Shown here: positions 20,683-60,148 of the stretch, in pieces
Numbering within the stretch: position 1 is the stretch's first letter
Layout: every line of letters begins with the position of its first letter
Source of the DNA: Ischnura elegans
Lineage: Eukaryota > Arthropoda > Insecta > Odonata > Coenagrionidae
Reading direction: 5' to 3'
Length of the DNA: 64,000 bases
Assembly: GCF_921293095.1 (NCBI RefSeq)
Contig: NC_060247.1
Span: forward strand, 108,767,111-108,831,110
Program-made: the position numbers and the translations under genes
The notes under the pieces: model-generated
Seen by the model: the letters and a program-made list of their open reading frames with translations, nothing else
Told to the model about the DNA's origin: nothing
Databases searched by the model: none

Positions 20683-20731
20683 GAGGTGACGACTGTTTCG
20701 CCAGGATTCCACCAAGCGTCTTCAGGTCGAA
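20683..20731 (-). ncRNA. Hammerhead-like motif 1
   Basis: Minus strand: CTGAAGA (20719-20725), one spare C, stem GCTTGG/CCTGGC around TGGAAT, then GAAAC (20695-20699) and AGTC. Flanking GAC and GTC can pair as a short helix I. It lies in a non-coding repeat (about 20640-20780) with no other recognisable part. Self-cleavage is not shown. Confidence 0.5.
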
Positions 20732-20789
20732 GTGGTGCTTTCGGTGTTTTTGCCGCGTGTATATAGCTCTCTAAGTTAAACATGTCATT

Positions 20790-21160
20790 TTTCAACCCTG
20801 AATTCAAGATCCCCTTTCCGTATTGAATAAATCGAAACCGCCTCTATGTGTTGCGAGCCTCACTCCTTTCCCAAATAACATTTATCTGCCCACCGTTCTA
20901 TTTTAGTGAAAAAACAACATCTTCTGGGGCTTTAGGGAGAAATTTCTAAAACGTTAACGCCCTGTTCCCCAAGTCTTACCCGTCAATGAATCGCAGGGAA
21001 ATTTCCCTAGAAAGGATTCTTTCGTCTTAAAAATATTACCCTGATATTTACTCTTAGTATGTATCCAATCCTAATCCAGTCAAAAGTAGACGCAGTATCA
21101 AATATCAGGTTAGTTTAGGATCAATGCATTTACAATACAATGCAATACATACACACGACT
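20790..21160. other. No recognisable feature
   Basis: Nothing recognised. Confidence 0.4.
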
Positions 21161-21164
21161 TTTT

Positions 21165-21640
21165 ACGTAACTGGCAGCTCTTCTTTGTACGCGTTCCAAC
21201 TTTTTCAAGCCTATTTCATGAGGATCGCAAACATGGCAGTGCATTCTAAATGGGGTCTAACGAGGAAGAAGGAGCTAATTTCTCCTACTTGGTCGTCTCA
21301 CTTTCATAGTATTCTTTCAACAAAACCCAATTCACGATTAGCTTGATCTGTTATTTCCCGAATATGTTACTTCCAGGATAGATGATTATTGAGTCAAACT
21401 GCGAGATATTAAACGGATTCTACGGTCTCTGTTTGTATACCCTGAATGAAATAGCTCAGCTGTGTGGAGTTAATTTTTTCCAGAAATTCATTACTACGCA
21501 TTTTTTTAAATATAACTCTAGCTGCCACGCATCGCACCATGCTTGGATTGCAGATTTGTATGCGACTTGTGAAGATGAACGCGATAAAAGGGCTGAAACT
21601 TTCAGGTTCCTTCCGATTTCTCAAATTTTCAGAGCCAGAG
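21165..21640 (-). pseudogene. Old, diverged LINE family A coding fragment
   Basis: The minus strand keeps recognisable pieces of the RT C-terminal part: a KRIL-KCD-like stretch, the EYAA-like region near 21230, and further upstream (21409-21648) SYFIQGIQTETVESV corresponding to SYIIRGTQLETVKSV of the copy at 5044. Several frame changes. Much older than the copies at 19613 or 45640. Confidence 0.75.
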
Positions 21641-21967
21641 GTTGGCAAGGTGATATCGTCCGCCTCCAGTGTCGGCTGGTTATCTTCCGCGTTTTAGACA
21701 GCTCTTTTCATTGGGAAGTGACCACCGGGTGTTTGCGGTGACGCATACTACTAGATCGGGTAGTGGGGGCCAAAAATGGCGATCGTCGACCCCTTCGGGT
21801 CTGCGATCAGAGGAACTCTTTCATTGTCCTCGTTGCCGATATCCTTATCTAGCGACGGACAAGGGTGAGATACGCTCCCCTTACTGAGGGGAAGGATCGC
21901 ATTCACCTCGTTGCTAACTTTCTGGAGCAAAGAAGGGAGATAAATGGGAGGCAAGGTTAATAGTTAC

Positions 21968-22030
21968 GTCGAAGGATTTTCCCGTCAGTTATCATTGGAA
22001 ATGAAGAGCAAAGATATCTGTCGAAGCATT
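21968..22030 (+). repeat. Diverged repeat of 22604-22662
   Basis: GAGCAAAGATATCTGTCGAAGC here and GAACAAAGATATCTGCCGAAG there, with further similarity upstream. The second copy is inside an open frame. Confidence 0.5.
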
Positions 22031-22350
22031 GTTTTTTGTGATTATGGCTTAATATCCCTCTTGCTTTGATCCCATCGAAAAGCGGAATATTATTTTGAAG
22101 GTGACTGCATAAAGGAGGCCCAATTCCATCCCATTGAAGGCTGATTTCTGTTGCCACTTCGGTCGTATTTTAAACTGTTTTAAAAAATTTCCGAGGCGCG
22201 TCGATGAGTTCAATGCGATCCGATTTTTTCCAATATAATGCAGTATAATGTTTGTAATTGCGAGGAATAGCATTAAAAATTTATTTGCCATGACCGGCTA
22301 AAATATTATAAAATTCTTGTAATGAAAAGTATATGAATAGCTTCTGCTAT
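22031..22350. other. No recognisable feature
   Basis: AT-rich; nothing recognised. Confidence 0.35.
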
Positions 22351-22425
22351 TTCCCTACTTATTCATCTAAATCTGCATAATACCCTGGAAGCCACCTCTA
22401 TGGTGTTTGGCATGGGGTAATTTTT
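22351..22425 (-). mobile_element. LINE tail fragment, decayed
   Basis: CTGCATAATACCCTGGAAGC then CACCTCTATGGTGTTTGGCA is the LINE tail read backwards; it stops before the hairpin. Confidence 0.75.
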
Positions 22426-22575
22426 CGTATTTATATCTAAAGATCTACTTTATCAAAACATAATTTTAGTTAACAACACTTGCGAGTAGCCTCTTTGAAA
22501 CACTAATCCACGGCAGTGACCTTCGTTTTCAATCATATGCAGTGGTCGAATCATCGCTGAAGGTCTACGGTTTAG

Positions 22576-22995
22576 ATGGAAGTGAACCCTAACAAGACTA
22601 ATATCAAAGGCTTTCCTCGTAAGAGATTAGTGGAAGTGAAGAACAAAGATATCTGCCGAAGCTTTTCATTTCCATGGAAACGGTTACCACTTCTTCTCCT
22701 AGTAATGGTCTGTTTGAATTTCAAAACCTTTCTGACCTTGGTTTACATCCAATCTTATGTCGGAAGAGCCAAAACCGTGCTTGATGTAATCCGTAGACCT
22801 TGCTTTCTTCCCACATCCAAATATTCCCGGAAGGAGTCCGTATCTCCTTCAAAGCAATTATTTGCCCTCTGTCATCGAGGAAGAGATGGTAGTAGCCGAG
22901 TTAAGTCACGATCGATTGCAGAATATCTTATTCCTTTCCTGCTTTTACGTTGTGACTTCATAATGATCATGTCCGAGGAAGTGTTAACAAAGTGA
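22576..22995 (+). CDS. Unrecognised 139-codon open frame
   Basis: Begins MEVNPNKTNIKG. Contains one strongly hydrophobic run (LLLLVMVCLNF, about residues 38-50) and a basic, serine-rich second half. No domain is recognised. Part of the 5' end (22604-22662) is a diverged repeat of 21968-22030. In AT-rich DNA a frame of this length is longer than usual but may still be chance; no splice signals or neighbours support it. Confidence 0.2.
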   Translation: MEVNPNKTNIKGFPRKRLVEVKNKDICRSFSFPWKRLPLLLLVMVCLNFKTFLTLVYIQSYVGRAKTVLDVIRRPCFLPTSKYSRKESVSPSKQLFALCHRGRDGSSRVKSRSIAEYLIPFLLLRCDFIMIMSEEVLTK

Positions 22996-23688
22996 CTTTC
23001 CATGCATCACATACTTGATTTTAATTTGTGGAAAAATTATATATTGTCCGCACCTCATATTACATATTTACTTGAATTGAGCTTAATGAATGCTATGAAA
23101 ATATTTACTACGATCAGTAAGGTCAGTGTTTAAGATTCACTACGTGGTGAGCCATACGAGTGGTAGAATGGTAACGAAACAACTATTCTAATTTTTGAGC
23201 GTTTTTAGGATAATCACATCTCCCGAAAAAAAACTCTCATATTGGTGGAAGCTCATTCCACCTCCATGAAGTGTGCATGTTACTTCTATTATTACATTAA
23301 TAGTAACATGTACTTACCTACAGTAAAGTATCCAGTGGTAAGCCCTGTAAACAGATTTTTTTCCCGAAATGGAATGGTAAAAACACAATCTGAAGTATAT
23401 TTCTTCCAAAATCTTGATAAGAATCGCAGTAAAAATACGAAAAGCTTCTGAGTCGTATAGGAAGTATTTTAATTAAAAGATAATGTAACCAATCAAAACA
23501 AAGTATTAGCCGATTTTTTTCGAAAATAAATAAAATTCTTTACCGAATATGTAATCGATGGTCGTTAAAATAAGATTAAACCCTAATTTTAAAATACCCA
23601 GTAGAATTTTCGATCTACCATGACGTCCCCTATTAAGCGGCCACGCCTGAAACGGTCGTTTTAACTGGAACCAGCAGTGGCTGCTTTA
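22996..23688. other. No recognisable feature
   Basis: AT-rich; nothing recognised. Confidence 0.4.
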
Positions 23689-23913
23689 AGGCCGCTATAC
23701 ACGGTGAATGATCATGCGAATTATCATGCTGAATGATCACCTGATCATTCACAGGATCATGCGAACAAAATAGAACATGTTCTAATTTTCACTGAATGAC
23801 CATGCGCATGAAGGTTCATTCGCGATTTGTTCCGTCATACACGGTGAATGATCACACGCATGTTCATGCTGAATGATCATGCGAATGAAATCATCTGCCG
23901 TGTATAGCGGCCT
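23689..23913. mobile_element. Harbinger-like MITE, intact copy (225 bp)
   Basis: Inverted ends AGGCCGCTATACACGG, exact on both sides, between TTA (23686-23688) and TTA (23914-23916). TTA is the target duplication typical of PIF/Harbinger. The interior is built of repeated TGAATGATCATGCGAAT-like palindromic units. No coding capacity. Serves as empty-site reference for the copy at 3896. Confidence 0.88.
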
Positions 23914-23951
23914 TTAGAGAGGTTTCAATCTATATTTTTTATAACCATAAA

Positions 23952-24638
23952 GTGAGCATGTGGTGCAAAAGTGGGTATAACTATTTTGTCAACAAAGTAG
24001 TCCCAAGCATCATGTTTTCTCTTTCCTCATTTGCCCCAACGACAAGAGCTAAGATTCAAGGTTCATGCGTGACTTCTATTCCTCTCTCCACCCTCGCCAC
24101 CGCCCGCAATCTTGTTTTCTCCAAAAAAGAATGGAAAATTCTGACCATCGCCTGCGCAAGGCTTTTCATCTTCGCGACGGAATCGCCGTTGGCGCCCCCC
24201 CTTAGCGACGGACAACTGCGAGGGGAGAGGAGGAAGTTGGATGGCGCGGGAGGGCAAACATGCTCCGCCGATTTGGAAACACACCCCATTCGCGGCGAAA
24301 AACATCCCCTGTCTCGCTCCCCTCCGCTCGTTTCATATTCCGCCGATGGCGCCGAGAGGCCGTGCGGTGCGACGACCTCTATCGCGAGGGAGGAGGCTTG
24401 GTACGGCGCGGCCTGGATCATTGTGATCCAGTCGCTGACTACGAAGCCAATGCGGAAATTAGCGTATCCCATTATCTCTCCAGACATATTATATATACCT
24501 ATTAATATCGCCACTTTTGGTCTATTGTCAGCCTCAGTAGCGGAGTCAGGGGCGGATTCAGGAGCGGATTCAGGGGGGGAATCACCAGGGTCATGCCCCC
24601 CCAAAGTTTATCAAAACGTTTTAATTGCTATCAGTTAA
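23952..24638 (+). other. GC-rich island with overlapping open frames
   Basis: A plus frame of 228 codons and a minus frame of 182 codons overlap almost completely, with two more of about 80. None has a recognisable domain. Mutual overlap and GC content argue that the openness is compositional. A promoter or first exon cannot be excluded. Confidence 0.3.
24535..24605 (+). mobile_element. hAT-like MITE left end with a tandem 12-mer
   Basis: CAGTAGCGGAGTCAGGGGCG opens like a hAT-type terminus; the unit GCGGATTCAGGG is present three times in a row with changes (24540-24577). No right end was found. Confidence 0.4.
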
Positions 24639-24639
24639 A

Positions 24640-25370
24640 TAGTTTTTTTTCCCTTGTATAGAAGTAAAGGGAGTGTAAATGCATGGCTAAAAATCCCAAA
24701 CGTGGGAGAAGTTAGAGTTGTAATCATAGTAGAGCTTCATAGTTCCTACTTTAAAAATGCCCATCACTCACGGGGGTGACACCATACTCCGCTGACCCAA
24801 ATCATTACCCTCCCCTAAATTTGATGCTGAATCAATCCCTGGGTGGGATAACGTCCTCGTTTGTCAACCCAGGGGTCGCAGATTCCACATGAATTAGTTC
24901 CACCGCTCAAGTGTATTTCTGGGTGTGCCTAGCTTGTCAGTTGTAAGAGATGCCTAAATATGATAAGTTAAATAAATGCTCATTTGATTTTGTTATTATT
25001 GCTATTATTTCTATCTTTTTACTTTTATTATTAATATTGTCATTATTATTATTATCATTTATTTTTAATCATTTTTTTCACTTTCTCAGTTGTTTTAGGC
25101 CAACTAGAAATATCCACCTGTCCGATCATACCCGGCCCAAGAACTCCTCACAGTCTGGTAAGTCTTTTGTAAGACTGCTTTTTGACCGAGGTTAATCAGA
25201 TTTTTTTCATTTTCCAGGTTTATAATTTATTTTTTTTATATTTTTGATACCACTCGCACCGCAGAGATTATTAATGGGTGAATACTGACTTCTTTAAAAA
25301 AAAATTTTATCGGCCAAATTTTGATATTTTAGGATTTTACGTATTTCTGTGGACTCAGCATTGTGATTCT
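24640..25370. other. No gene; TTA-rich low-complexity stretch
   Basis: About 24980-25080 is a degenerate TTA/ATT simple repeat. Confidence 0.5.
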
Positions 25371-25555
25371 ATTTATTTATTTTCATCGCCACGAAAACAG
25401 CTCATTAAAGGCCTTTACATAGGAGGAAATAACATGAAACAACGATTATAACACATAACTATACCTTGGGTTACCTAACTTACGCAGACGGGATTCGAAG
25501 CCGCGATCTTCGGTTTGGCAGGCGAGGACTTAACCCCGCCGCCACCGAGGCCGAC
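25371..25555 (-). mobile_element. SINE S1, nearly complete copy
   Basis: Minus strand: head CCTCGGTGGCGGCGGGGTTA, A-box region, B box GGCTTCGAATCCCGTC, body, and an AAATAAATA tail. The best-preserved head of the family here. Confidence 0.85.
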
Positions 25556-27557
25556 ACCTCAGTTGCTCTGCTACATCAATTATATTTGCTTTTTGTTCTC
25601 ATTTTTGGATCAATAAAACATCAGGTCTATTAAAATCTGTGGTTTGATCGGTGAATATCGGTCGATCTCTGTATAGAATATGTGTATTATTTTCTAGTGC
25701 TGCATTTGGTTGGTAATTGTATTATTGGGGGGGGGGGGTATTTTTTAAAGAGATCATAAGTATTTGCCAGATTCTGGTGGATGATTGTTCGCAAGGGTAT
25801 TTTTTTAGATGTGAACTCTCTTGATCCCCCACTGCGTTCTTCTCTCATGCCAATTTTTCCTGTCTGATGTTTGCTGCATATTTATAGCGATGTTTGCGTT
25901 TTGAAAAGGATACGCGTAAATAATTCTGAACTACCTGCCCCGAACACGTGTTTAATTCGCGCAATATGACTCACGCTTTCCAGTTTCCTCCTCGTGCGGG
26001 TTCATCAACATCCACTATCCCAGCAGCATCCATCGCAGCAAGTCCTAAACAACAGATTTCTAATGATCATTAGCTCACCGTGGGTCATTAGTCTGAGTGG
26101 CCCGCGGTTTATTTTCGCGACACCTGAATGGAACGCGGCATATGCATGTTTAGGTTCAAGCAACTGTCCACATAAACGTGCATTGTGCAAGCGTTGCGTG
26201 GTGTCCACGGACTAAAGGTCAATTCCTCGGATGTAGTACGTGCAGCCCGGATTTCAGTTCGTTGGAGTTCTTTCTCAATAAATTCCGTGTCGATTGAGGC
26301 TATATGATTTTCATTGGACGTGAATACACTTTTAACATCATGGGAAACAGGTAAAAATTTCGTTTAACAAATATTTTCAGGATTCATTCCGTCTCTGGTT
26401 CATTTTGAGATGTTTAACAGCCTATATTTGCTCAGAAGTGTTTGATAGGCATTCAAAAACGTTTTAATAAATATTTTGTTGCCATATACTACAAATTAGT
26501 TGGCATTTTTATTTTATGAAATTAATGCATAAGATAAGACTTCCATGCGATATATTGTTTCCAATTCACTTCACGCTAAATAAGGCGTTTGGTGACCATT
26601 GCCACCTCAGACCTGCACTAAAAGATAAATAGAGTCGAAGATACGGTTAATTAAATAGTAAGTACTATCATATAAGTAAAAAGCTTCGCGGAACATAATA
26701 TCGTAAAAAATTAAAACCTTAACATATATAAAAGTATTTCTTAATTTCTGATAAAAGTACCTGATAAAATAATTAAATTTCTCTTCTCCATTCGAGATTT
26801 CGATTGGCGCGAAATAAAGAATATCTGTTATAATTTATTGTTAGAGGAAGATGATAAATTTTAAAATATTACTTTTCTGTAATGTAAATATTTAAGTCAA
26901 CCTTGTGATCATTTCCATTAATAATTTATACCATGTAGTTCCTATTTAAATAAGTCTCGTGTTAATAAATAACAATAACAAATAAATAATCACCCGAAAA
27001 TTGATTTTAGATTTCAAATTAGTCTTTGCATGTTCTCTCTCTGTCAGGTTCAAACTCATCATTTGGCGCCATTGTCAGTTTTAACGTAAGTATAAATAAA
27101 AAAATCAATTTTGATAAAACTCATTATTATACAGCCAATTGGGTTTTCATTCCTCCTTGCATCTTTGAGGACTTAAAGCTCAATTCTCCCGTTTTCTACT
27201 CGATAAAATTTATTTTTATCAGTTAATGGATGCAGTTGCTGCAAAACTGTGGGCAAAAACTTTTAACGTATAATAATAACACCTTCCCTATACTCGATGG
27301 AGTTCCTACTAATTTTGTTTTGCATTTTGAGTTATCTTCAATGAGTCTTCATCGTCTGATCTATTAAATACAACTGCCGTGTATGGTTAAAGTAGAACAT
27401 CAAAAAGTTTAGTTTTAATTTAGGTTTAAATGTGCTAATATGGGTGCTAAATAATAAAGTTAGGTAAGTAAACAGGTTCAAAAACAGAATTTCGGTAATT
27501 CACCGTCCCGTGAGCTATGACCAAGGCTGATCAGGCCGCTTGTCGGCCAGACATTAG
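25556..27557. other. No recognisable feature
   Basis: AT-rich, with a run of 12 G at about 25727-25738. Frames of 66-73 codons show nothing known. Confidence 0.45.
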
Positions 27558-28867: not shown

Positions 28868-28939
28868 TCCCATGTGGTCTAGTGGCTAGGATATCTGGCT
28901 TTCACCCAGAAGGCCCGGGTTCGATTCCCGGCATGGGAA
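28868..28939 (+). tRNA. tRNA-Glu (UUC)
   Basis: 72 nt, anticodon TTC at 28901-28903, acceptor TCCCATG/CATGGGA perfectly paired; same mature sequence as the gene at 2897. Followed by CATTTTTT, close to the 3' flank of that gene. Looks functional. Confidence 0.95.
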
Positions 28940-29094
28940 CATTTTTTAAGCTGTTGGCATCAGAAATTATTTTTAGCAGCAGCTTAATCTAATTTGAAGG
29001 TGGATAGTGAAGGTCAGTAAGGAATATCCTATGTTGCCAGTGGTAATTACATTAATGTTAAATTTCAATGGAGCAACGGGAAGACCTCTTACGA

Positions 29095-29160
29095 CCACTT
29101 CTAGAATGTGTAGCGAACATATGGGATCCGGTGCAGAAATACTTAATCCGTAAACTCAGG
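29095..29160. repeat. Short dispersed block, also at 20300-20370
   Basis: See the partner copy for the shared motifs; family unknown. Confidence 0.55.
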
Positions 29161-29899: not shown

Positions 29900-29942
29900 G
29901 TGCACCTGAAGATGTCATAATTTGGCGAAACCGGCTGTGCAA
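29900..29942 (+). ncRNA. Hammerhead-like motif 2
   Basis: GCAC, CTGAAGA (29906-29912), one spare T, stem GTCA/TGGC around TAATT, GAAAC (29927), then GTGC which pairs with the GCAC before the box (helix I). The cleavage triplet is not canonical (GGCT), so this copy is probably decayed. Confidence 0.45.
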
Positions 29943-30683: not shown

Positions 30684-30732
30684 GTGGACCTGAGGAAGCC
30701 AACTGGAACGTTGGCGAAATATTGTCCTACAA
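30684..30732 (+). ncRNA. Hammerhead-like motif 3b
   Basis: GGAC, CTGAGGA (30690-30696), one spare A, six-pair stem GCCAAC/GTTGGC around TGGAAC, GAAA (30716-30719), TATT, GTCC which pairs with GGAC. A well-formed three-way core, though the usual GTC before helix I is not in the canonical place. Confidence 0.55.
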
Positions 30733-30904
30733 AATGGATAAACGCGGAAGAATACCCGGAAAAATCACCGGATATGTTCCATAGATAGGTTCACTATTAC
30801 AGGTCCTTTGGAAGACAGAAAGTCACTATCATATTTCCCCCTGCCAAACGCCCTAGAGGTTGCAGAAATGTTTCTCGGGTTTTCCACCGGTTGATGTCGT
30901 CCAT

Positions 30905-30952
30905 GTCTCCCGACGTTTCGATCCGCGACTTGCTGATCATCCTCAGGGGATC
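30905..30952 (-). ncRNA. Hammerhead-like motif 4a
   Basis: Minus-strand partner of motif 4b in the left arm, with all core bases the same and one change in the loop. Confidence 0.6.
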
Positions 30953-31059
30953 TTCCGAATGCCGTTCTTCAAAATTTTTTTGAAAATTTTGAAGAACGGC
31001 ATGAAAAAAAGAAAAAAAAGAAGAAAAAAAGAAAAAATTTTGAAGAACGGCATTCGGAA

Positions 31060-31107
31060 GATCCCCTGAGGATGATCAGCAAGTCGTGGATCGAAACGTC
31101 GGGAGAC
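31060..31107 (+). ncRNA. Hammerhead-like motif 4b, best copy
   Basis: TCCC (31062-31065), CTGAGGA (31066-31072), one spare T, stem GATC/GATC around an 11-base loop, GAAAC (31093-31097), GTC (31098-31100), GGGA (31101-31104) pairing with TCCC. This matches a type I hammerhead with minimal helix III: box CUGANGA, helix II, GAAA, cleavage triplet GUC, helix I. The one departure is the spare base between the box and helix II. Confidence 0.65.
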
Positions 31108-31230
31108 ATGGACGACATTAACCGGTGGAAAACCCGAGAAACATTTCTGCAACTGATACGCCGGGAAAACCTAAGATCATACATAGCCCTAGAGGTGGCT
31201 CGCATGGTGTTATGCAGATGTATGTATCCA

Positions 31231-32025: not shown

Positions 32026-32086
32026 TCCGGTATTGTCTAGTGGTTAGGATACCCGGGAGGCCCGGGTTCGATTCCCGGTACCGGAA
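32026..32086 (+). pseudogene. tRNA-Glu-like sequence lacking the anticodon arm
   Basis: 60 nt plus discriminator. Acceptor TCCGGTA/TACCGGA is fully paired but differs from the true genes at matched positions; the D arm GTCTAGTGGTTAGGAT and T arm CCGGGTTCGATTCCCGG are intact, followed by ATATTTTT. About 12 nt, the anticodon loop and part of its stem, are missing. It cannot decode. A Glu origin is likeliest, Gly is possible. Confidence 0.8.
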
Positions 32087-32238: not shown

Positions 32239-32370
32239 CGATCGACGATTTGATTCCCGCGTTTCGGCTCACTGGGCCATCTTCTGGTACAAGACCAGAT
32301 TCTTGTACCAGGTGATGGCTCAGTGAGCCGAAACGCGTGTACGCAGTAAAACATTTTGTGGAAAAGTGCT
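32239..32370. mobile_element. Fold-back element with a hammerhead-like core (motif 5)
   Basis: Inverse arms meet around 32293-32301. On the plus strand: GTAC, CAGGTGA, one spare T, stem GGCTC/GAGCC around AGT, GAAAC (32330-32334), GCGT, GTAC pairing with GTAC. The box has lost the CTGANGA consensus (the other arm reads CAGAAGA). TTCTTTATTTATTT left and TCTTTTATTTATTT right look like a target duplication of about 15 bp. Confidence 0.55.
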
Positions 32371-32635: not shown

Positions 32636-33440
32636 AATCTACATCTACATCTACATAATACCCTGCGAGCCACCTCTAGCGTGTTTGGCAGGGGGTGATC
32701 AATCACCAGCATGCAGCATGCATTTGGACTCCCACATGCACACCACACCGTCCAAAAAACGTCACGTATACTAACAAGCTATACTTCTATATGCTTTTAG
32801 AAATAATAATAAAACTAAGAAACATGAATTAATTTTTACATAGGTTAGTAGGCTACACTACAAGTCACACAATCTATTTACGAGTTCTATTGCTGCCGTT
32901 ATTATCTCATATTGATCGCGGAAAAAATGACATTCGGAATCTGTCTGTTCTGCAATCTATCTCTCTAATTTTATTTATATGATCTGATCTTCCGCAGTAT
33001 GCTGGCGTCCGTAAGATATGGTTAACTTCGTCAGAAAAGACACTGCTCTTGAATTTATCTGAAAGGTTTAGTCTATTTTTCAATCTACGGTCCGACAGAG
33101 ATTCCCATCCGAGTTTATCTAAGAAGTCAGTTACACTAACAAGACTATCGTAACGACCTTTCACATACCTGGCAGCTCTTCTTTGCACGCGTTCTAACTC
33201 TGTTATTAAGCCTTTTTCATGAGGGTCCCAAACACTGGCGGCGTATTCCAGATGTGGCCTAATGAGGGAAAAGTAGCTAATTTCTCTCACTTTGTCGTCG
33301 CACTTTCCTAATATTCTTTTAACAAAACTCATTTTACGATTAGCTTGACCGGTTATTTCTCGAATATGTTTATTCCACGATAGAACATTATTGAGTCTAA
33401 CCCCTAGATATTTCACGGATTCAACAGTCTCTAATTGGGA
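32636..33440 (-). mobile_element. LINE family A copy
   Basis: Complete 3' end: three TAGATG units, the GCAGGGTATTATG block and the hairpin, then UTR and coding part. Truncated 5' at about 33440. Confidence 0.92.
32907..33416 (-). pseudogene. LINE family A, C-terminal 169 codons of the RT protein
   Basis: Open frame KYLGVRLNNVLSWNKHIREI, then the QRRAARYVKGRYDS block, ending MSFFPRSI, slightly short of the stop of the 4431 copy (the frame meets TGATAATA-type sequence early). It lacks the polymerase core. Well preserved, so a fairly recent insertion. Confidence 0.9.
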
Positions 33441-38388: not shown

Positions 38389-38757
38389 CTTTACTAAACA
38401 ACATAAATAAAAACTAGAACACGACCCGGGTTTCAACGTCTTAGCATCATCATCAGGTGGTTACCACTGCATATATCGCAAATCCTTAAATGCCAAAATT
38501 ATAAGTGGGAGGGGGAGTTGGAAGGCAAAGAGGAAGGGAGCGGGTCAGTTAGGGAGGGGGGAAGCCTGGTCCACCAATGCTGAAAGGATAGGGAAATGGG
38601 AGGGCAACAGTCATTCGTTTAGAAGGTTAACATCTGCGTCAAGGTAACATTTTAACATTTCGAGCTGTTCAAAGGCATTCAGCACACGTCGGTCATTAGC
38701 TAAATGCAAGGTTTTCACGTGTTCTAGTTGTTATTTATGTGGTTCAGTAAAACTTCC
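38389..38757. mobile_element. Inverted-repeat element carrying a hammerhead-like motif
   Basis: Left end TTTACTAAACAACATAAATA continuing AAAACTAGAACACG; right end inverted TTTTACTGAACCACATAAAT continuing AACAACTAGAACACG. The interior (about 250 bp) is G-rich and non-coding. Confidence 0.65.
38415..38462 (-). ncRNA. Hammerhead-like motif 6
   Basis: Minus strand: AACCAC, CTGATGA (38450-38456), one spare T, stem GATG/CGTT (two wobble pairs), GAAA, then helix III ACC-CG-GGT, C of the GTC triplet, and GTGTT pairing with AACCAC with one bulge. All parts of a type I hammerhead are present. Confidence 0.6.
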
Positions 38758-41092: not shown

Positions 41093-41700
41093 AAATCAAC
41101 CCTTTTATCTTCTTCCTTCCTCATCCCATGGCCAGGAAGAGCGCGTGCTCCTGCTTTCCACCTTGAGTCTAGCACAGCTCCAAGTTCACAGAGCGGATTT
41201 TTCAAGCTGTTTGATGAGTTAGGCTGGCCACCTCTCCCTGAGCTGAGGGAAAAATACAAACTAAACTTCTATGCCTCGCATTTACAGATGATGTATTACG
41301 CATCACTGTTTGCGCCGCTCTTTGATGAGAAAAATTGTGAAAATTGCTGAAGATATTCGTGCACCAAAACAAAAGATGGCATTTTTTCCTCAAACAATCA
41401 CCCCTTTTCTCTTCTTCCTTCCTCATCCCATAGCTAGGAAGAGCGCGTGCGCCTGCTCCTATTTTCCACCTTGAGTCTAGACCACTAGTTTACGGAGCAG
41501 TTGGATGAGTTAGGTTGGGATCCTTTTCATAAGCAGAGGGAAAAATACAAGATAACCTTTGGAGAAAATTATATGTCTCGCATAAGCAGATGATGTATTA
41601 CACATTGCGGTTTATGTCGCACATTGATTGGAAAAAATGGAGAATATTTTTTTTTAATTTTGCATGAAACACCAGATGACATGTTTTCATCGATCAATCA
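41093..41700 (+). repeat. Tandem duplication, two units of ~303 bp
   Basis: Units begin at about 41097 and 41400: CTTCTTCCTTCCTCATCCCA, then AGGAAGAGCGCGTG, CCACCTTGAGTCTAG, GAGGGAAAAATACAA and GCAGATGATGTATTAC occur in the same order in both. Diverged by substitutions and small indels. No ends, no coding recognised. Confidence 0.85.
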
Positions 41701-42785: not shown

Positions 42786-42910
42786 GGTTAGGTAGTGTAA
42801 CTGGTGGCGTACCTGACCGTCAATCCGGGGATCCGGGTTCGAATCCCGGCCTAGCAAAATGATTTTCTCATGGCGAATTTCCTCCTACGCATATATATCT
42901 AAGCACTCTT
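42786..42910 (+). mobile_element. tRNA-derived SINE (family S2), copy 1
   Basis: A tRNA-like head (GGTTAGG/CCTAGC acceptor pairing, A-box-like GTGTAACTGGTGGC, B box GGGTTCGAATCCC) is followed by a body TGGCGAATTTCCTCCTACGC and ATATATATCTA. The anticodon region is not clear, and the D arm is poor for a tRNA gene. Confidence 0.65.
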
Positions 42911-45639: not shown

Positions 45640-46437
45640 AGAATTAGAGACTGTTGAATCCATGAAATATCTAGGAGTTAGACTCAATAATGATCTATCG
45701 TGGAATGAACATATTCGAGAAATAACCGGTCAAGCTAATCGTAAAATGGGTTTTGTTTAAAGAATATTAGGAAAGTGCGACGACAAAGTGAGAGAAATTA
45801 GCTACTTTTCCCTCGTTAGACCACATTTGGAATACGCTGCCAGTGTTTGGGACCCTCATGAAAAAGGCTTAATAACAGAGTTAGAACGCGTGCAAAGAAG
45901 AGCTGCCAGGTATGTGAAGGGTCGTTACGATAGTCTTGTTAGTGTAACAGACCTCTTAGATAAACTCGGATGGGAATCTCTGTCGGACCGTAGATTGAAA
46001 AATAGACTAAACCTTTTAGATAAATTCAAGAGCAGTGCCTTTTCTGACGAAGTTAACCATATCTTACGGACACCAACATACTACGGAAGATCAGATCATA
46101 TAAATAAAATTAGAGAGATGGATTGTAGAACAGACAGATTCCGAATGTCATTTTTTCCACGATCAATAAGAGATTATAACGGCAGTAATAGACCTCGTAA
46201 ATAGATTGCATGACTTGTAGTGTAGCCTACTAACCTATGAAAAAATTAATGCATGTTTCTTAATTCAATTATTATTTCTAACAGCATATAGTAGTATAGC
46301 TTGTTAGTATATGGGACGTTTTTTGGACGGTGTGGTGTGCATGTGGGAGTCCAAATGCATGATGCATGCTGGTGATTGATCACCCCCTGCCAAACACCCT
46401 AGAGGTGGCTCGCAGGGTATTATGTAGATGTAGATGT
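45640..46437 (+). mobile_element. LINE family A copy
   Basis: Truncated 5' at about 45640 and complete at the 3' end: UTR, hairpin GGTGATTGATCACC (46368-46381) and TAGATG units. Among the least diverged copies. Confidence 0.93.
45655..46204 (+). pseudogene. LINE family A, C-terminal part of the RT protein
   Basis: SMKYLGVRLNNDLSW at the start, a stop in the KMGFV-RIL stretch (near 45758), then 138 open codons from 45788 to the natural stop at 46202-46204, with YFSLVRPHLEYAASVWDPHE, the QRRAARYVKGRYDS block and MSFFPRSIRDYN. No polymerase core. Confidence 0.9.
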
Positions 46438-47350
46438 AAAAAAATTTCCTGTACCTACTCCAGGTTTCTTATGAAAATCGTTCGATACACCGATATGGAA
46501 TCACCAAATGCATCAATTCCAAACTTAACGTCTTAGATATTCCTTAAATATCCATTGTAATTGTACTTTGATTAAACTTACCTTAATGCATACGATAATA
46601 GGCTAATAATTTACGTAAATTCCTCGTCATTCACCAATTTTTTAGCCAATGACAAAAATGATCATATTTTTTTGTACCGTCTTCTACCTTTTTAAACATT
46701 TGCAATTGAGGTTTAAATTAAGAATTTTATCAGAACCTTACGATCATATTTCACATTCTTTCGGAAGAGCAAATAAATCTTTGCCTTCCATTTCTATTTT
46801 CCAAAAGTACTCCGAGGGGGTGTCCCTCGCAGAACTTATTGTTTTCGTACCTCGAATGAAACGATTGGCGTCATTCATATCTCTTTGTTCGTAAATGCCA
46901 TTTCTGTTTGCTATTCCTTCTTATCACATCCTTATAATGCAAATAATTTTTGCTAAGAATCTGCGTCTATTTGATACGCTACTAGCTGTTTCCTGGGTGT
47001 AGCGCAGGCATATAAGTCTTAAGACTAGACAATCTGAATCATTCTTTCTTATTTACCTCAAAATAACTTTTTTGGTAGTTATTTTCCTCCAAGGTGCAGT
47101 GTTAGGCATTTATATTTCCTTAATTTTGCGATTATCATAAAATGTACCTTCTAGGAACCAAATTAATGTGCATATCACTGGCAATGTTTTTTATCATCTA
47201 TGAATAATATTGTTTTTTAATGCCTGCGAAAACTTTTTGTTAATACTTATGAGGTGCTTTTCAGATAGCTTACAGATAACAATGGAGATGTTTAGGAATA
47301 GATGCACTAATATGATATCAGACACGATGTGGTGGAAGTTCTTAGTATTA
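46438..47350. other. No recognisable feature
   Basis: AT-rich; the 81-codon frame at 46649 is not recognised. Confidence 0.45.
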
Positions 47351-51709: not shown

Positions 51710-51714
51710 TCGGC

Positions 51715-51770
51715 ATCTAATAGGTTTAGTCTATTTTTCAATCTACGGTCTGACAGAGATTCCCAGACGT
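51715..51770 (-). mobile_element. LINE family A coding scrap
   Basis: Minus strand: ESLSDRRLKNRLN only. Confidence 0.75.
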
Positions 51771-54253
51771 GTAGTGCATGTAGAAGTAATTGCACAGTTG
51801 TACGTGCAACCGGTTGTGCAATTACGCTACGCGAGTAAAACGGTATTCACGCCACATTTCAATAGACTTTCTCTTAAGAAAACTACGTGTTTTGCATTCG
51901 CCGGAAGGGTCAGTCGAGTGTCAAGTTCTCAGCGCTGTCAATCTTCGTTTTTCGCCATCGCTTACGAAGGCACTGTGCAAAAATCCTCCTATATCCCTGC
52001 GTGGGAGCAGAAAGAGAACCCTTCCCACGCAACACGAATCCCTTGGGTACCTTCAACCATCTCGGCGGGATACGGACTTTCACCCAATGGGTTTCCATGG
52101 TGACGGATTGTTTTGCGCCTCCATTTTTTTTACTTGAAATTCTTTCGTCGTAACGGGAGTGTCATCTTGGGGAGAATGGTTCATTTCTGCGGTAAACAGG
52201 TCCAACCGCCCACCTTGCCCTCTGTCATTTCTTCTAGCATCCTTTCTTTACCTGCTGAACCTTTCTGTCCGGTTCATCTTCACCCCCTTTGGTTGCGTTT
52301 CCGGCATAATCTCTCCGCTCCTTTCCTGCTAAGGCTGCTGCAATCTCTTATTGTGTTCCTTTCCACCGTATTCCTCCGTTGATCCCTTTTCCCATTCTAC
52401 AGTAGCTATTTTCGTCACTTCTAGACCCCCGCGTTTGTTTACGTCATCTTTCACCGTTATTCCCACGCACATGGTGGAATAGCTTCTATTCCATGCAAAT
52501 CCATGGTGTTTATCTAAAATTACCTAATTTTACTCGGTGGTCTTTCAAAATAAGGCATCTTGTAAACAATAACGAACTATAATTGATAAATTAAACGAAA
52601 ATTTACTGAGAGTTTAATTTTCATTCTTCTCTTAAAGAAACTTAAAATATAAATTGAATTGAGTTTGAAATTTTATTTTTTTCAACTAATGTAAGTGAGT
52701 TGGTGCATACTTAGAAAAAAATTGGCATATCCAGAAGAGGACATGCGTTTGTATTCATGAACCAAAGTGCTTGAACGATTCGGTTGAAGAAAATTTAATC
52801 TAGGCATTGGCTCAGGGAATATATTCTGGTCTACATACGTTTTGGAATTTTTACTCTGGCCATTACGACAGCTGACTTGCAATTTCTTAAAATTTTTTTT
52901 GATGAAGCCCAGTTTTTTCACAGTAAAGTCGATAAGATATCGATGAATAGCACATTAAATGATACACAAAGGTAGCTTTTTCAGCGTCAGATCAGAACAG
53001 CTTTTTTCAGTGCTAGGCCGCTGATGTTGGAAATTTCATGCTGACACGAGTTATCCAGTCACGGCGAAACTTTTCCCACTGCCGTTGGAGAAGGGAGCTT
53101 TTCTGTGAGAGAACGGAAAGAAAGGAACGCAAGGCGTAAAAAGGTTGCGGGGAGAAATGACCGGTGGATATTTGCGAGTTCGGCCGTCAGGCCATAACCT
53201 ACGCTTCGCAAAGCTCTTGGCTGCAAAAAGAAAATGCATGTATAACTTCCTATAGTGGTCACACTCTCACCACGCGCCAGTTCCTGGAACGGGTCAAAGG
53301 GTTGAGAGCTATATACTGCAATTCCGTCCGGCCTGCTGGCCTACATTCCAGAAATATGAGAGGTTCCTTCGATTTTGCTTTCGTCCGGCCAGAGGCGACT
53401 CGTTGACTGGTTTAGTGCGAGCAATAAAGGCATCAGGAGGACATGAAAGCGACAGCAATTCCGTAATAAATGCAACCCTTTCCTTTCAGGCTCATTATAC
53501 GCGTATTATGCTATGTGGCACATGCGTCTGAAAGCTCCGGTCAGTGCCTCGGAGTCTCGCATCTACCTTGTTTTTCTACCCCGTGGGAGAAGTTCTTGGA
53601 AATCTCAAAAAAAAAATATTTGGCCAGTTCATGACATCGATGTGGCAAGCGATGCAAATTTGCTGGAAAATACCACAGGTAAATCTTAAAAAAAAATGAA
53701 ATTGTCGAAATCTAGGGAGCCACGGTTAAAACATAAATATGTGCCGAAAATGTACAGTACAGCATAAGCAGTAACTCTAGGAATAAGAAAAATTGTCGCG
53801 TCTATACCTAAATCTTCTTTAGATTCTGAAATGGCCAGCAATCGAATATACGACGAATATATTTTAGGAAGAAGTTGGACCACGAAAATATACTAGTAAC
53901 TATGTGCTACTTCGTAGAAATGAAGCTTTAATATGCACTTTCTTTAATTTTTAATATCAGAGGTACAAAAATATAAAATTTAAAGGCCGGCAAACATGTT
54001 TGGTTTTCTTTCCTTAACCGAGACACTTCAATAATATTGCCAAATTAAATTTAATTTGGGAAACCCTTATCAGTCGGGTGGAGACGCAAAATAAAGAATT
54101 ACCATTCAAGTGCAAAATTTCTCAAAAATTATTTAAACGCCCTTTTGAAAAGAACCCATGACCCCTCAAGTAATCTCGTATAAAGTAATTATACGTATTA
54201 TAAAAAAGTATTTATCTCAAGTAATAAATAAGCTCTCGAATCTTAAAAAAAAG
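51771..54253. other. No recognisable feature
   Basis: 51780-52400 is mixed-GC with overlapping frames of 62-115 codons; 53050-53410 likewise. No domain is recognised. Confidence 0.4.
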
Positions 54254-54325
54254 TTCCCATACCGGGAATCGAACCCGGGCCTTCTGAGTGAAAGCCAGAT
54301 ATCCTAGCCACTAGACCATATGGGA
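54254..54325 (-). tRNA. tRNA-Glu (UUC)
   Basis: Minus strand, 72 nt, anticodon TTC at 54290-54292. Acceptor TCCCATA/TATGGGA is perfectly paired, a compensated change relative to the other three genes. One G-T wobble closes the anticodon stem (CCAGA to TCAGA). Followed by a T-rich terminator (CTTTTTTTTT). Confidence 0.92.
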
Positions 54326-55310
54326 TATGGAAAAGATTGCTAATTCATATTTTAGACAACCGCAATAAAGTCAGGATGGACCGTGTGATCCTAAAGCTGA
54401 TGCAGTACTATGTCGTTTCCAACGGTATCAAGATTGCCCCTGAATTCGCACCCTAAAGGTTATTTTTACATAGTCTACGATTATAAGATATTTCGTGATA
54501 TTCGGCAAAGCAAGTTCACTTTTTTCGTCATGCATCCATAAGATTGACTGAAAGGCGGTCCATATGCAGTCATTCTTAATTATGCCTTAGAGAGACAACA
54601 AGATTCGTACATGAAAACTACATCTTAATAAATTATAATCCATTAAAACTCTCATTATTCTTTTTAGTTAAACATACGTTTTAACAATAATATTAATATG
54701 CTACTTATTATTTTGCTTTACTACCACAGAAGGCTTATGGAGAGCATTACGTATTTATGAGATTTTGAAAGAAATATGACCTCATGGATATTTCCAGGGA
54801 ATAAGTACAGTGAAAAATGGCGGGTAAAACCTTGTGTGTGACCTAGAGGAAGACTTTCATTCAAAATTTCAATTCCCAAACCAAGGAAACCATAAAAAAG
54901 TCCAATTTTTTAAATCAGCTTGCTTTTACCAATGCGACGCCCCTGTACACTGGTAATACCGTGGTAGCCTTTTACACTTCGCGGAAAAAATTTCGTTTGT
55001 AGCCTTTTTAGCTTTCGAACTTATTGTCATGACAAGACACTTGTCCAGTATCCCTCCTAGGAAACACCCTTTCCCCGCAAATTGCGCGTCCCTTTCTCTC
55101 CTCCCCCCCCCCCCCAAAAAAGCAAAGTTTTAACCCTTTCCTTGCCCACTTCGACGTCACTTACCCCTCACAACTCTTCCCCGTGGGAGTTGTACTTGAA
55201 GGGAGTGTAGCAAAACCCTTTTTGCGGAAGGAATCGTGTCCCCCACTGCGTCACTCAGAACTTCCATCCCCCCACGGGGGCCCATGACCCACATCCGGAG
55301 GACCCCCCCG
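54326..55310. other. No recognisable feature
   Basis: AT-rich, then C-rich runs near 55100 and 55250. Confidence 0.4.
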
Positions 55311-55690
55311 CAGTGGCGGATTTATGGGGGTCCACAGCCCCTTTCTCCCCCATTCAGTCAATAAATACACTAGATAAAATCCAATTTTTTGGAGGCTACC
55401 TCTTTGTACTAAAGTATTTGATTATATACTTTCCGGTTAATTTATCCACTATAACGAATTAAAATGCAAATTAGGTCCTATTAATACAGGCTTTGGTACT
55501 AATAAACGACCTACAAGTGCTTAGTACTGTCTTTTATTTGTCAATAATAGGCCTTAAACCACCGTTTTTAAGTTTTGCAAATCCTTAACTTCCTAAATCT
55601 CCAAAACCTTGTATTGATTGGGGAGTAATTCTCCAGGCGTCAGGTTTCCGCCCCCCCCCCTCTTGGTGTCCAAACCTAGATCCGCCACTG
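55311..55690. mobile_element. hAT-like MITE, 380 bp
   Basis: Ends CAGTGGCGGATTTA and, inverted, CAGTGGCGGATCTA. Both flanks are C runs, so the expected 8-bp duplication cannot be confirmed. Confidence 0.7.
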
Positions 55691-56117
55691 TCCCCCCACA
55701 TGGAACTCTTTCCGTTCTTCTTGTACGAGTTATAGTTTCCTCTCTCTACCATTGGTGACGAGGGGAAAGGAAGGAAAAGGGCCATATGCATCCTCCCATG
55801 AGGGCTGGCTTGGACAAGTGACGAAATTACGGTGCATTGAGAGGGTATGCTTTATTCCCTACTTTCGAAGTCGAAACTGCTTCCTTCCTTTCTTCCTTAG
55901 CCCATGCTAGATTTTTTTAAAGATTTAGCGGAAGATATTGTGGTGACTAAGTTTGGTCGGCGTGTTATGCAGCGGATACAAGAATGATTCATTCTTGTTG
56001 ATAGCCCTGAACGCATGATAATATGTTTCGTGTTTTAATTATCATCTTAATTAAATAGTGGTGGCATGTACATACAAATAGCTAAGTACAAGCTGGGGAA
56101 AAATTCTCACCTCTGAC
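55691..56117. other. No recognisable feature
   Basis: Nothing recognised. Confidence 0.35.
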
Positions 56118-56205
56118 ACACATCTATATCTACACATTAATCTGCAAATCACTTACAGAGGCGTTTGGCAAGGGGTGAACCATCACCAACATGCACTAGA
56201 GAATA
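56118..56205 (-). mobile_element. LINE tail fragment
   Basis: CATCTATATCTACACATTAA, then GAGGCGTTTGGCAAGGGGTG and hairpin GGTGA-TGGT-TCACC (minus strand). Confidence 0.65.
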
Positions 56206-56212
56206 CATACAC

Positions 56213-56260
56213 GATGCACCTCAGAGGTGGCTCACAGGGTATCAGATAGATATAGATGCT
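56213..56260 (+). mobile_element. LINE tail fragment, opposite orientation to the previous one
   Basis: CACCTCAGAGGTGGCTCACA then GGGTATCAGATAGATATAGATG. Confidence 0.65.
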
Positions 56261-57635
56261 TCTTGAAAATTTTTATCCGTATTTTCGGTGTATGTGTGAT
56301 GCACATATTTTCAAAGGCCGTGCCAGAGAACCTTCAGCGCCCCTTTGCCTGCCATCCTATTGTGACTTATAATTTAATAGGCATAAATTTCTTAGTAATA
56401 TGTGTATATAGTGGACGCGAGTGAATAAAATTCCAGAGCTACGCCTGTAATTTCGATAATATTACCACTAGTACTCTTTGTCACGAGTCAAAATTTTATG
56501 AATATTGTGTGCGGGATTTCAGTGGAAATATTTTGTCCATTAATTGAGTAAAAAAATCAATATTTTTTGGTATTATCATTCTATTCATACTGATTACTAC
56601 ATAGTTTATGATATAATTAGGCTGCTTCTCATGCGAGGCCCGATGCTTTGCTGAAAAGGATTTTCACTTAGCCAAATATTTGACATTGGCCTCATTGTAT
56701 CTTCGATAACGGTGCAGGACGAAGTATTTACGAAGACGGGAGGATTCATCTCACGGATATTCTCCCACTTACCTACGTCTTGAGTCGTGTGGGAGTCTTT
56801 CCGTAAAATCCAAAACTGTTAGCGATATCGTATCGTTTTGTTCGTAGAAGGATAAATATACACAAACGAAAGTTGTGAAAGTCAAATGAAATCCTTTAAC
56901 TTTGAAGGGCGGTGTGACGTGCATATTTATCATTGGCCTACATTCCGCTGGCGAAGGGAAAATAAGTAATTTCACGTCTGACCTCATAGAAATTCATGAA
57001 AATAACATGTAAAATGGTGTTACGGAGAGGTAATCGAAGAGTACGTCAGAGCTGCCGAAAAGGACGCAGTTGCGGGATATTTTTGTAAGCCGGGTTACGT
57101 AATGGAGCCGTGATGATTTTATGAAGATCCCTATCACGCACGTGTTAGGAATAAATGAAAGAATTATACTTAACTCTACTAGGAAAATCGTCGAAACATA
57201 CATGGGTTGTATTAGTGGCTGAATAAACTCTATTAAAACTATTGTTCGCTCATTAACAAAATATCAGTTTCGTATCCATAAATCTGCGCAAAAAATATCG
57301 TTTCATTTGCTGACAAACATTAATATCATCCCTGAGTACTTAACTTTTTTACCGCAACAAGAACGGCCATCATTGTTTGAGAGTCGTTTAAATGTTTGAA
57401 TTAATATTTTGAATAAGCGTCAGAGTGAACATTTGAAGACGAAGTTAATATGATTTGAGAGTCCACACATTAGAAAATGGAAAATAGTGAAGGGAATAGA
57501 TTCGACAACTTATAGGTATAAAAATTCATTCTTCCCCTGAAAGATAAATGACTAGGAATAAAGGAATGAATAGTGGGTGCTTGGTGAGAGCTAACTACTG
57601 CCACGTAACCTAAAAATTGTGGTATCTCCTACATG
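56261..57635. other. No recognisable feature
   Basis: AT-rich; frames of 65-72 codons are not recognised. Confidence 0.45.
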
Positions 57636-57766
57636 TAGTCAAACATCCTAGAGATGGCTCGCGAGGTATTATGTAGATGTAGCCACCTGATTGCATGTTG
57701 GATAGAAATACTCAATTCCTTCTGTACATCCTAGAAGTAGCTCGCTGTGTACCATGTAAGTAGATG
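57636..57766 (+). mobile_element. Two LINE tail scraps in tandem
   Basis: CATCCTAGAGATGGCTCGCG to ATGTAGATGTAG (57636-57681), and CATCCTAGAAGTAGCTCGCT to AAGTAGATGTA (57726-57767). The P-like element starts about 11 bp further on. Confidence 0.65.
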
Positions 57767-57961
57767 TACTAATTACCCAAGGTGGTAAAGGAGAGGTGGT
57801 CTCAGTTCCCTTGCCGAAGTCCTGTGACGTCACGGCAGACACCGGCCATTTTCGACGGATGAACCGCATGGGAATTCAGTTTCTTCAGCAACGAATATTG
57901 CGCTCCCTGACTAATACTGCCGATTTACTTCTCTTTTTGCGTGGTAAAAGCATCATAAAGA

Positions 57962-58038
57962 ATGCGTTGTACGGTGGCTACTTGTGGTAATAGCTCTAAC
58001 AAAGCTAAGAAGAGCGGACTTCAAATATCCTTCCATAG
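57962..58038 (+). CDS. THAP-domain first exon of P-like transposase (element 2)
   Basis: ATG at 57962: MRCTVATCGNSSNK, then LQISFH and a split arginine. Cys at residues 3 and 8 (CxxxxC) and the FHR motif match the N-terminal half of a THAP finger. A donor, GTATGT at 58039, follows AG, splitting the Arg codon as in element 1. The frame is open, but no downstream exon could be followed. Confidence 0.7.
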
Positions 58039-58339
58039 GTATGTAAATCGTTGCGTTGTTGTGATTATATTATTTGAGGCATTATTCCTATTATTAATCT
58101 AATTATCTTGAATAGTTGTGCTGGATGCTCTTCTATGCCTGATGCACTATGTCTTCTTCGTGGATTTCTTGCATAAATGCTTTTCAGCTCTTAAGCTGAA
58201 GAAGGGAAGAGTCCAGGGAAAGACTCTGTTGGCAGAAAGATCACCATCTTCGCATTAGATTAGACTGGCAGAATGTTTTCTGCAAATTGATATTGCCCAA
58301 CCTTAGTTTTCCTGTAGCACAGACTGTGAATGATGAAAT

Positions 58340-58800
58340 AGACACTCGAGTAATAGCATGTTTGGTACAAATCAAGAGGTTTTATAACGTTTGATGAGAC
58401 TGAAAATTTGGTGTACTCTGGTGCTATTCATTGAAATTGTTGAATAGTTCATTTTTTAGTTCCTCTAGTAAAGCTCACCGATTTATACAACATTTTTAAT
58501 TACAGGTTCAGCTATTCCAGTAACAATGGAAGATTTGTGGTGGCTTTCATCACGTATTCATGATTCTTTTACTAATTTGAAACTATATCAATAGATATGT
58601 TCCATCAATTACACTTGAGATTTATTTTTAATTTGCATACTTTGCATTGGTTGTATAAATAATAGTTTCAATAGCATTCTTAAATCTGAATTCTGGAAAT
58701 GTAAAATTTGCTGTTTTATGCATATTATATAAGTTTGAAATATGTGTATTGTTTTCTTTTTTAATTCCTCCATCTGTGATTTTATTTGATGCAGCTTTTA
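58340..58800. repeat. P-like element internal blocks shared with element 1
   Basis: Collinear with 11030-11283 and then 13380-13665 without the 2.1-kb insertion, and without the MITE of 13674. The two P-like elements are thus diverged relatives. Confidence 0.7.
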
Positions 58801-59874
58801 TCCATGCTCCAAATCTCTTGAAAAGCACTTATACTGCATATTAGCTTGTTGTTTGCATACCTGTTTCTGTCTTATTTTGGGTAATGATATAGTTATGGTT
58901 AACCCTTCAAATTGACCACATTTTTATCAAAATTCCTCGAATTATGTTTATTGTACTATCTTAATGGAAGTTTCCCTGAAAATTGTGTGTGGAAACCCTT
59001 CGATCTTGTTCCTCAGCTAATACTTTACCAAGTTCAAATTATTCCATATTAAGCATTGCTACTTCAGAGCCATGAAGGTAATATTAGTACTTCTAGAAAA
59101 GATTTACTCTGTTAACTATTCAAATATGTACGGAAAAACGTCCTGTAAAAACTTGACTGAAGCACGCTTATAGTTTTCCCTTCATTACCTTTTCCTTAGG
59201 AAGGAACTACTATTGGTGATTCAAATGACTCCTAAAAGAAATAATCACCGTTTGCACAAATGCATATTAATAATAAACACAAATTTACTCTTTACAATGT
59301 TAATTGCGTTAAAGTTCTACATGGTATTATGGCTAGATGGTTATAGTTAACGACAATGGTGCAGAAAATTGAAGACAGTATATAAGAATTCACTCTGGTA
59401 GGCGAGAGGGGAAGAGTTGGACTCAACAAATGCTAGTTTTTAGAAACAACTCTTAGTAGCTACGAAATTTTATCTTCATGAGTTTCTAGGATTACTTTTC
59501 AAAATGGCATTTTCAGTTGTTCTTCGGAATTTCCGCTTTTTCAGTTCGGCCAAGGCAATTCTGTTCGTAAATTCAAAAATAGCAGCCGTTCGACGTCGTC
59601 CTTTATTTATTCACTTTAAAAAATACCTTTCGTTCATGACAAGCTATTCTATTGAACGCATTCAAATGTCATACATATAAATTCCACCACCCCACAGCCG
59701 TTTCATCGACATATCTAGCCCAAAGGCGAGAATGTGAATAAATATGACAGGAAAACCCGGGCATAGCATGTTAATCCTGCCAGGCGGCTGAGCGAGGTGT
59801 CGGCCGTGACGTCACCGCCGAAACGTAAACAGCGAAGTGAGACCACCTTACTTTCTATCACCTTGCTAATTACC

Positions 59875-60101
59875 TACTTTAACTTCGACAAAGGTAGGTT
59901 CCCTGGCTATCCATTATGATGGAAAGTGCCATGAAATTATATGACATAATTCGCTGAAAATATTCATAGAAATCTGAATAAAAATTTTTAAAATTTTAAC
60001 GCCATCCCAAAGGGGTTATCTACCATGACTTCGACTTGGATAAGTTAGGTACTCTAATGATAAACAAAGATATCGTACTCTCCACTAATTTTATTTAACA
60101 A
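59875..60101. other. No recognisable feature
   Basis: Nothing recognised. Confidence 0.3.
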
Positions 60102-60148
60102 TTTAGAACACGTGTTTCAACTGCCTTGCAATCATCATCAGGGACTTT
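60102..60148 (-). ncRNA. Hammerhead-like motif 7
   Basis: Minus strand: CTGATGA (60135-60141), one spare T, stem GATTG/CAGTT, GAAAC, helix III ACAC/GTGT, triplet GTT. The AGAACACGTGTTTCAAC end resembles the element at 38389. Helix I pairing is not evident. A LINE tail starts just beyond it. Confidence 0.45.

Follow-up and report, generated by a model that had tools for sequence, protein, structure and literature searches.

Minimal hammerhead motifs in Penelope-like retroelements of Ischnura elegans, and insertion 5' ends at the predicted cleavage site

In Penelope retroelements, minimal type I hammerhead ribozymes have been described that lack helix III and lie in the pseudo-long terminal repeats (pseudo-LTRs), in thousands of dispersed copies, and for which cleavage as a dimer has been proposed (PMC6155905, PMC7761336, in the passages cited). 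For the Poseidon element PAc of Anolis carolinensis, the portion of the source drawn on here gives a hammerhead with stems I and II and two internal start sites of reverse transcription, 111-118 nt into the open reading frame (ORF) and with a 30-40 nt tail between them; both target strands are cleaved and extended, and unprocessed RNA is the main substrate (PMC11167929). In Adineta vaga, the pseudo-LTRs of Penelope elements are inverted, head to head, inside a target site duplication, one of them bearing a 31-bp tail, and the cited passages attribute these inverted arms to self-priming on antisense RNA (PMC3846280). Here we analysed a window of 64,000 nucleotides from Ischnura elegans (contig NC_060247.1, positions 108,767,111 to 108,831,110, forward strand), part of a genome of 1.72 Gb in 110 contigs, for which an earlier note made from the sequence alone had listed hammerhead-like motifs. 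We are largely confident that these are minimal hammerheads in the leaders of Penelope-like retroelements and that some insertions start at an RNA end made by cleavage. The ribozyme itself is of a known kind, and what is new is the point at which insertions start; in the open-licence literature, as far as its accessible passages go, no earlier report of insertion ends at a hammerhead cut was found.

The hammerhead motif and its helices

All places listed in the earlier note were read and the motifs are there: seven copies have an intact CTGANGA and GAAA, at 20725(-), 29906(+), 30690(+), 30946(-), 31066(+), 38456(-) and 60141(-) (these positions are those of the C of CTGA), and two are degenerate. 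When strict matches were counted (CTGANGA, one nucleotide, at least four contiguous pairs, GAAA), the window yielded six, whereas 150 first-order Markov simulations averaged 0.07 and never exceeded 2; 20725 is absent from this count because of one T.T mismatch. No strict match in the window has the stem flush with CTGANGA or two nucleotides away from it. The register is therefore CTGANGA, one nucleotide, helix II, GAAA, and not the stem flush with CTGANGA that had been proposed. Among the distinct interiors of the window and of the loci fetched by then, the stem lies at offset 1 in 32/85 (shuffled mean 1.9, maximum 7) versus 3/85 at offset 0 (shuffled mean 1.9), which is chance level, and a stem starting right behind A9 was rejected. 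In the window copies the extra nucleotide is T or C, except for A at 30690; of 34 distinct copies, 32 have T or C there and two have A. Viroid hammerheads include exceptions to helix II directly after A9, and De la Pena and Flores reportedly described in 2001 an extra A between A9 and helix II in the Chrysanthemum chlorotic mottle viroid hammerhead. The place is the same, but the nucleotide is A there and a pyrimidine in nearly all retroelement copies here; we do not put the extra pyrimidine forward as new.

Across the genome, the pattern CTGANGAN{4,30}GAAAC has 81,487 matches, compared with 18,010 for a backward control pattern. In loci L001-L085, fetched around the earliest-listed of these matches in a stretch of 3 Mb, a helix II of at least four contiguous pairs at offset 1 was present in 35/96 distinct matches, and in 43/96 when one mismatch was tolerated. 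If this stretch is typical, roughly 30,000 hammerhead-like copies may be extrapolated for the genome.

Helices III and I were assessed in the 34 distinct copies, which had been selected by core and helix II alone; those belonging to the same subfamily are not independent. GAA is followed by a run that starts at A15.1, ends at U16.1 and is self-complementary, its middle base sometimes being unpaired. This run, followed by a nucleotide other than G in keeping with the UH expected ahead of a hammerhead cut, occurs in 32/34 copies (shuffled mean 7.9, maximum 16), as ACGT in 19, ACTGT in 6, ACCCGGGT in 3 and ACCGT, ACCGGT, ATAT and ACACGTGT in one each. No helix III closed within one molecule was found among the 34: the self-complementary run, 4-8 nt long and lacking a loop, is all that is present; such a helix can form only between two RNAs, and the diminished helix III is predicted to be able to pair in this way. 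The run together with a helix I of at least 3 bp was seen in 25/34 copies, against a shuffled mean of 0.3 and, when 5' strands were swapped among copies, a mean of 6.0 and a maximum of 13. In the window, 3-4 helix I pairs are formed at 30690, 30946, 31066 and 38456, and 20725 pairs by eye, whereas 60141 has no pairs and 29906 pairs, again by eye, only in a shifted register.

Covariation was followed in rows of equal length, aligned separately by type, a joint MAFFT alignment having been discarded as it was off by one column between types. Changes on both sides were observed in 10/11 helix I and II pairs of the type-B rows (n=17) and in 7/10 of the type-A rows (n=13). In type B these changes fill 32 cells versus 12.7 after shuffling, and none of 500 shuffles reached as high. 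Ten of these rows, five of each type, had failed the strict helix II filter and the remainder had passed it, so helix II pairing is partly a product of selection by us, while helix I pairing is not. As far as comparison of copies can tell, selection on a hammerhead structure, as the earlier note had suggested, is supported; that note had recognised the hammerhead but neither its self-complementary helix III nor its extra nucleotide.

The Rfam hammerhead models returned no window match up to E 10, and a covariance model built from the 17 type-B rows (R1) gave a significant window score only for its own two members. One of them is the copy at 31060..31108 (+), with helix I TCCC/GGGA, CTGAGGA, U10, helix II GATC/GATC, GAAA, the helix III half ACGT and C17; its cut is predicted between 31100 and 31101, after GAAACGTC, and its R1 score of 60.7 bits is that of a copy used in building the model. 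The other lies at 30904..30952 (-), in the inverse arm of the same insertion. Four further copies scored E 0.17-0.63, intermixed with matches at 1979, 7721 and 11079 (E 0.41-0.94). These are the type-A copy at 20683..20731 (-), with helix I CGAC/GTCG, ACAGT, C17 and the mismatch in helix II (E 0.17); the copy at 30684..30731 (+), with A10 and with ATAT substituting for the ACNGT run (E 0.18); the type-C copy at 38415..38462 (-), with helix III run ACCCGGGT, C17 and helix I CAC/GTG (E 0.31); and the copy at 60103..60147 (-), with run ACACGTGT and an unpaired helix I (E 0.63). The 30684 copy has a degenerate inverse copy upstream (core CCGAGGA) and sits in a 207-nt inverted repeat of 91%. At E up to 1, R1 did not recover the copy at 29900..29942 (+), with a decayed run ACCGGCT and helix I GCAC/GTGC in the shifted register, or the second degenerate copy, at 32300..32345 (+), which retains helix II GGCTC/GAGCC and GAAACGCGT but has a broken core (CAGGTGAT). 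Single decayed copies such as the latter may be inactive.

Insertion units and where they begin

The hammerheads at 30946 and 31066 belong to one Penelope-type insertion, 30860..31185, made of two head-to-head leader copies with a hammerhead in each. It is enclosed by a 10-bp direct repeat, GCCCTAGAGG, at 30850..30859 and 31186..31195, which we take as the target site duplication. The left (minus) arm has no tail and the right (plus) arm is tailed, and the arms (30859-30980/31032-31153) are 98% complementary. The Rfam plant microRNA precursor models MIR5048 and MIR2606 match the palindrome 30859-31153 with E down to 1e-22, below gathering, which is a warning about such matches in inverted repeats.

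Within the subfamily of 31066, 39 copies were fetched; together with the window copy they make up the 40 scored best matches. A pattern in the 3' part of the leader counted 1,160 copies (control 0), and 5' ends were read in the earliest-listed 66, all exact matches (60 newly fetched and 6 earlier). Since the beginning of the tail is part of the pattern, tailed arms were picked and the 5' end was not looked at in choosing them. The commonest 5' end lies about 14 nt before the core, with 26/66 copies at -15..-13. In total, 9 direct arms began upstream of -16, 30 at -16..-10 and 8 at -9..-1; before correction of L125 and L128, 7 were at +1..+35, 5 at +36 and 7 beyond. Four copies (L148, L153, L159 and L168) start precisely 1 nt past the predicted scissile bond, and L128, scored at +35, is a palindromic tie at the cut, which makes 4-5/66. 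L125 was rejected as a cut copy because a 3-nt insertion is present. An inverse arm stands beside 41/66 copies, 19 of these arms being at -16..-10, that of L153 at +36 and that of L128 at +35; by eye, unscored, an inverse arm ends near the cut in L148, L156 and L168. Inverse arms that seemed, from BLAST ends, to stop at the cut on their outer side were misread, as they extend to the untailed site. In this set the counts, 2/3 versus 0/38 units (Fisher p 0.004), hint that cutting of one arm goes with cutting of the other. A TATA-like box is visible by eye about 30 nt upstream of -14 in the longer copies, and at a similar distance in other subfamilies, and -14 was therefore taken as the probable transcription start.

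Head-to-head junctions gave a larger sample. A pattern constrained at +41..+51 of each arm and nowhere else, which is blind to arms reaching the start site, gave 28 junction units genome-wide (control 0), L153 and L168 among them. Half of their arms, 28/56, begin exactly at the cut (+36), against a shuffled mean of 0.06; a mismatch-tolerant count gave 30/56. Of the others, 5/56 are at +31..+35 and 23/56 at +37..+41. Both arms are cut in 6 units, one in 16 and none in 6, with no excess over independence. In a second subfamily, F3, 6/18 arms are at the cut (9 distinct of 10 units, mismatch-tolerant).

Twenty of the 28 units were fetched, the first in the list minus two already sampled and one apparently unrelated. 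A direct repeat of 6-13 bp, at most 1 nt from both ends, flanks 18/20 of them (no shuffled control was run). In 14/20 a tailed arm is combined with an untailed one, the two ends lying near +85 and +118; five units have one arm off and one (L191) has both off, and none of the 20 has two arms of the same kind.

Two subfamilies contain repeated junctions. Ten F5 loci (G000 C1:49292168 and nine others) share one identical head-to-head junction, as if the whole unit had been amplified. The junction GGTGTAGGCCTACACC recurs unchanged at six L023 loci, and if its GGCC belongs to both arms, each of them would begin at the cut; either repeated use of the GGCC overlap or amplification of one unit may account for it.

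Insertion 5' ends exactly at the predicted cut suggest RNA self-cleavage in the living germline. We read them as likely fossils of in vivo hammerhead cleavage, followed by reverse transcription to the cut end. Transcription would start about 14 nt before the core, downstream of the TATA-like box, which would place the ribozyme at the RNA 5' end. Two RNAs would pair through the helix III stub and complete two hammerheads. Target-primed reverse transcription would proceed from one of two internal sites (+85 or +118) towards the RNA 5' end, most often stopping at the transcription start, to give a copy of about 130 nt, and in a minority at the new 5' end left by cleavage; run-off at these two RNA ends would produce both classes of insertion end. 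Both ends of the cut target would often be extended, one per start site, and the cDNAs, joined head to head, would come to lie within a single target site duplication. More tentatively, and with somewhat less than even confidence, we propose that the genome records germline cleavage and that helix III pairs two template RNAs at their 5' ends for an endonuclease/reverse transcriptase (RT) dimer, which would copy both and so give head-to-head insertions, template pairing being the main role and cleavage the second.

Host elements and alternative explanations

Homology among related copies often stops at +82..+130, and in L008/L057/L059 and L015/L080 it continues to between +250 and +980. GIY-YIG-like or RT-like sequence was seen by eye upstream of the motif in L053, L004, L020, L076 and L060. 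The window insertion, the sole one delimited there, is too short for an ORF. Six ORFs from the loci were scanned, and that of L060 matches RVT_1 above the cut-off (E 9.6e-8) and GIY-YIG below it (E 0.0065). A GIY-YIG family gave 149 matches among the 150 scored of 2,199 candidates; two of them, in L046 and L085, precede hammerheads by about 160 and 330 nt, and all 16 neighbour pairs within 6 kb are divergent, two on C9 resembling copies of each other. L046 also has a repeat pair, 99.4% identical and about 2.6 kb apart. With RT and GIY-YIG upstream in several, and with Penelope-type insertion ends, the motif hosts are, by these sequence signatures, Penelope-like retroelements of several subfamilies, and the motif is identifiable as the known minimal Penelope hammerhead, which bears out the assignment made before.

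Several observations weigh against this account. Most copies, 54/66, run across the cut, so cleavage is not needed for insertion, and in the Anolis work, in the passages cited, insertion by cleavage mutants was normal in vitro, and the cut was neither the start nor the end of any read (PMC11167929). Other subfamilies support the cut-site end weakly: 5/20 arms in L023, with 7 more put at -3 by a palindrome (10 distinct of 17 units), 2/6 in F2 and 1/4 in F6 (all three mismatch-tolerant), and only 9/62 in the GUU subfamily F5 (31 distinct of 41 units, exact extension), for which leader variants were added after junctions had been seen; the pattern for F4 matched one unrelated palindrome only and was dropped. 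The binomial figures for subfamilies are only a guide because they assume uniform ends and independent units. On the host side, the L053 and L020 ORFs score just below the GIY-YIG cut-off, for that of L076 the sole match is to a group I intron endonuclease model and stays below the cut-off, and those of L084 and L046 have no RT or endonuclease model match. Among solved structures, the L060 RT is matched best by a group II intron-like RT (E 0.0024), ahead of telomerase RT (E 0.0083).

The same ends could be pauses of the reverse transcriptase at folded RNA, with no cleavage. They do sit inside a structured region, and the 23/56 arms that end 1-5 nt 3' of the cut are of the kind that pausing would leave. 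A pause is expected, however, before helix I (+40/+41, 11/56 arms) and not after the whole 3' strand of helix I has been copied, and the peak spans a single nucleotide (28 at +36, 3 at +35, 4 at +37) and falls at the predicted bond also in a second subfamily of different sequence; we consider pausing unlikely. A second transcription start at +36 would look alike in DNA, through run-off at a capped end, but more than one subfamily would then need a start lying right at the scissile bond, which makes it very improbable. Retrozymes, which are non-autonomous and consist of tandem repeats bearing complete type I hammerheads, had been offered as another home for the motifs, and type I cores are common to both. 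This option falls away almost entirely: the window has no tandem arrays of 150-450 bp (the rest of the genome was not searched), helix III is not closed, the Rfam models are silent, and Penelope-type ends and ORFs are present. Several copies lie within inverted repeats, as a chance or DNA-level palindrome without RNA function would, but with 6 found against 0.07 expected and with both helices covarying, this explanation is refuted for the set as a whole and retains hardly any probability.

If insertions that begin at the cut do record cleavage, the ratio of cut-start to transcription-start insertions would measure cleavage of the template RNA. Insertion 5' ends would then provide an RNA-free test of cleavage in any Penelope-bearing genome, in which GUC and GUU subfamilies could be compared.

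Neighbouring features and comparison with known systems

The 64 kb also carry tRNA-Glu (TTC) in four nearly identical copies and two further copies that resemble tRNAs, one of which was called tRNA-Asp, at 2896-2968(-), 17853-17924(+), 28868-28940(+), 54253-54325(-), 32026-32086(+) and 42786-42857(+); tRNA-Glu may be amplified in the genome. A reverse-transcriptase repeat at 5044-5955(+) (RVT_1 E 5e-14) recurs at 19612-20194, 32640-33439 and 45642-46438, in copies of 94-97% and in both orientations, and is probably a LINE. At 41094-41639(+) there are two diverged sequence copies about 300 bp apart, partly related to 5702-5765 and 45951-46014.

The hammerheads of this genome are like the minimal Penelope hammerheads of the published passages in their type I order, the lack of helix III, the pseudo-LTR location, their dispersal in thousands and the cleavage proposed for a dimer (PMC6155905, PMC7761336). 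With PAc, as far as the cited portion describes it, they share helices I and II, two start sites and a tail, the tailed end being here 112 nt from A9, the probable cleavage and extension of both target strands, and the apparent dominance of unprocessed RNA, to which a minority of processed RNA would here be added; they differ in that no RNA reads were reported there at the cut, while a minority of genomic copies begin at it here (PMC11167929). The head-to-head inverted arms, the target site duplication and the tail on one arm recall Adineta vaga, where self-priming was invoked in the passages cited, whereas the paired start sites and cut-site 5' ends found here fit two templates copied from both target ends (PMC3846280).

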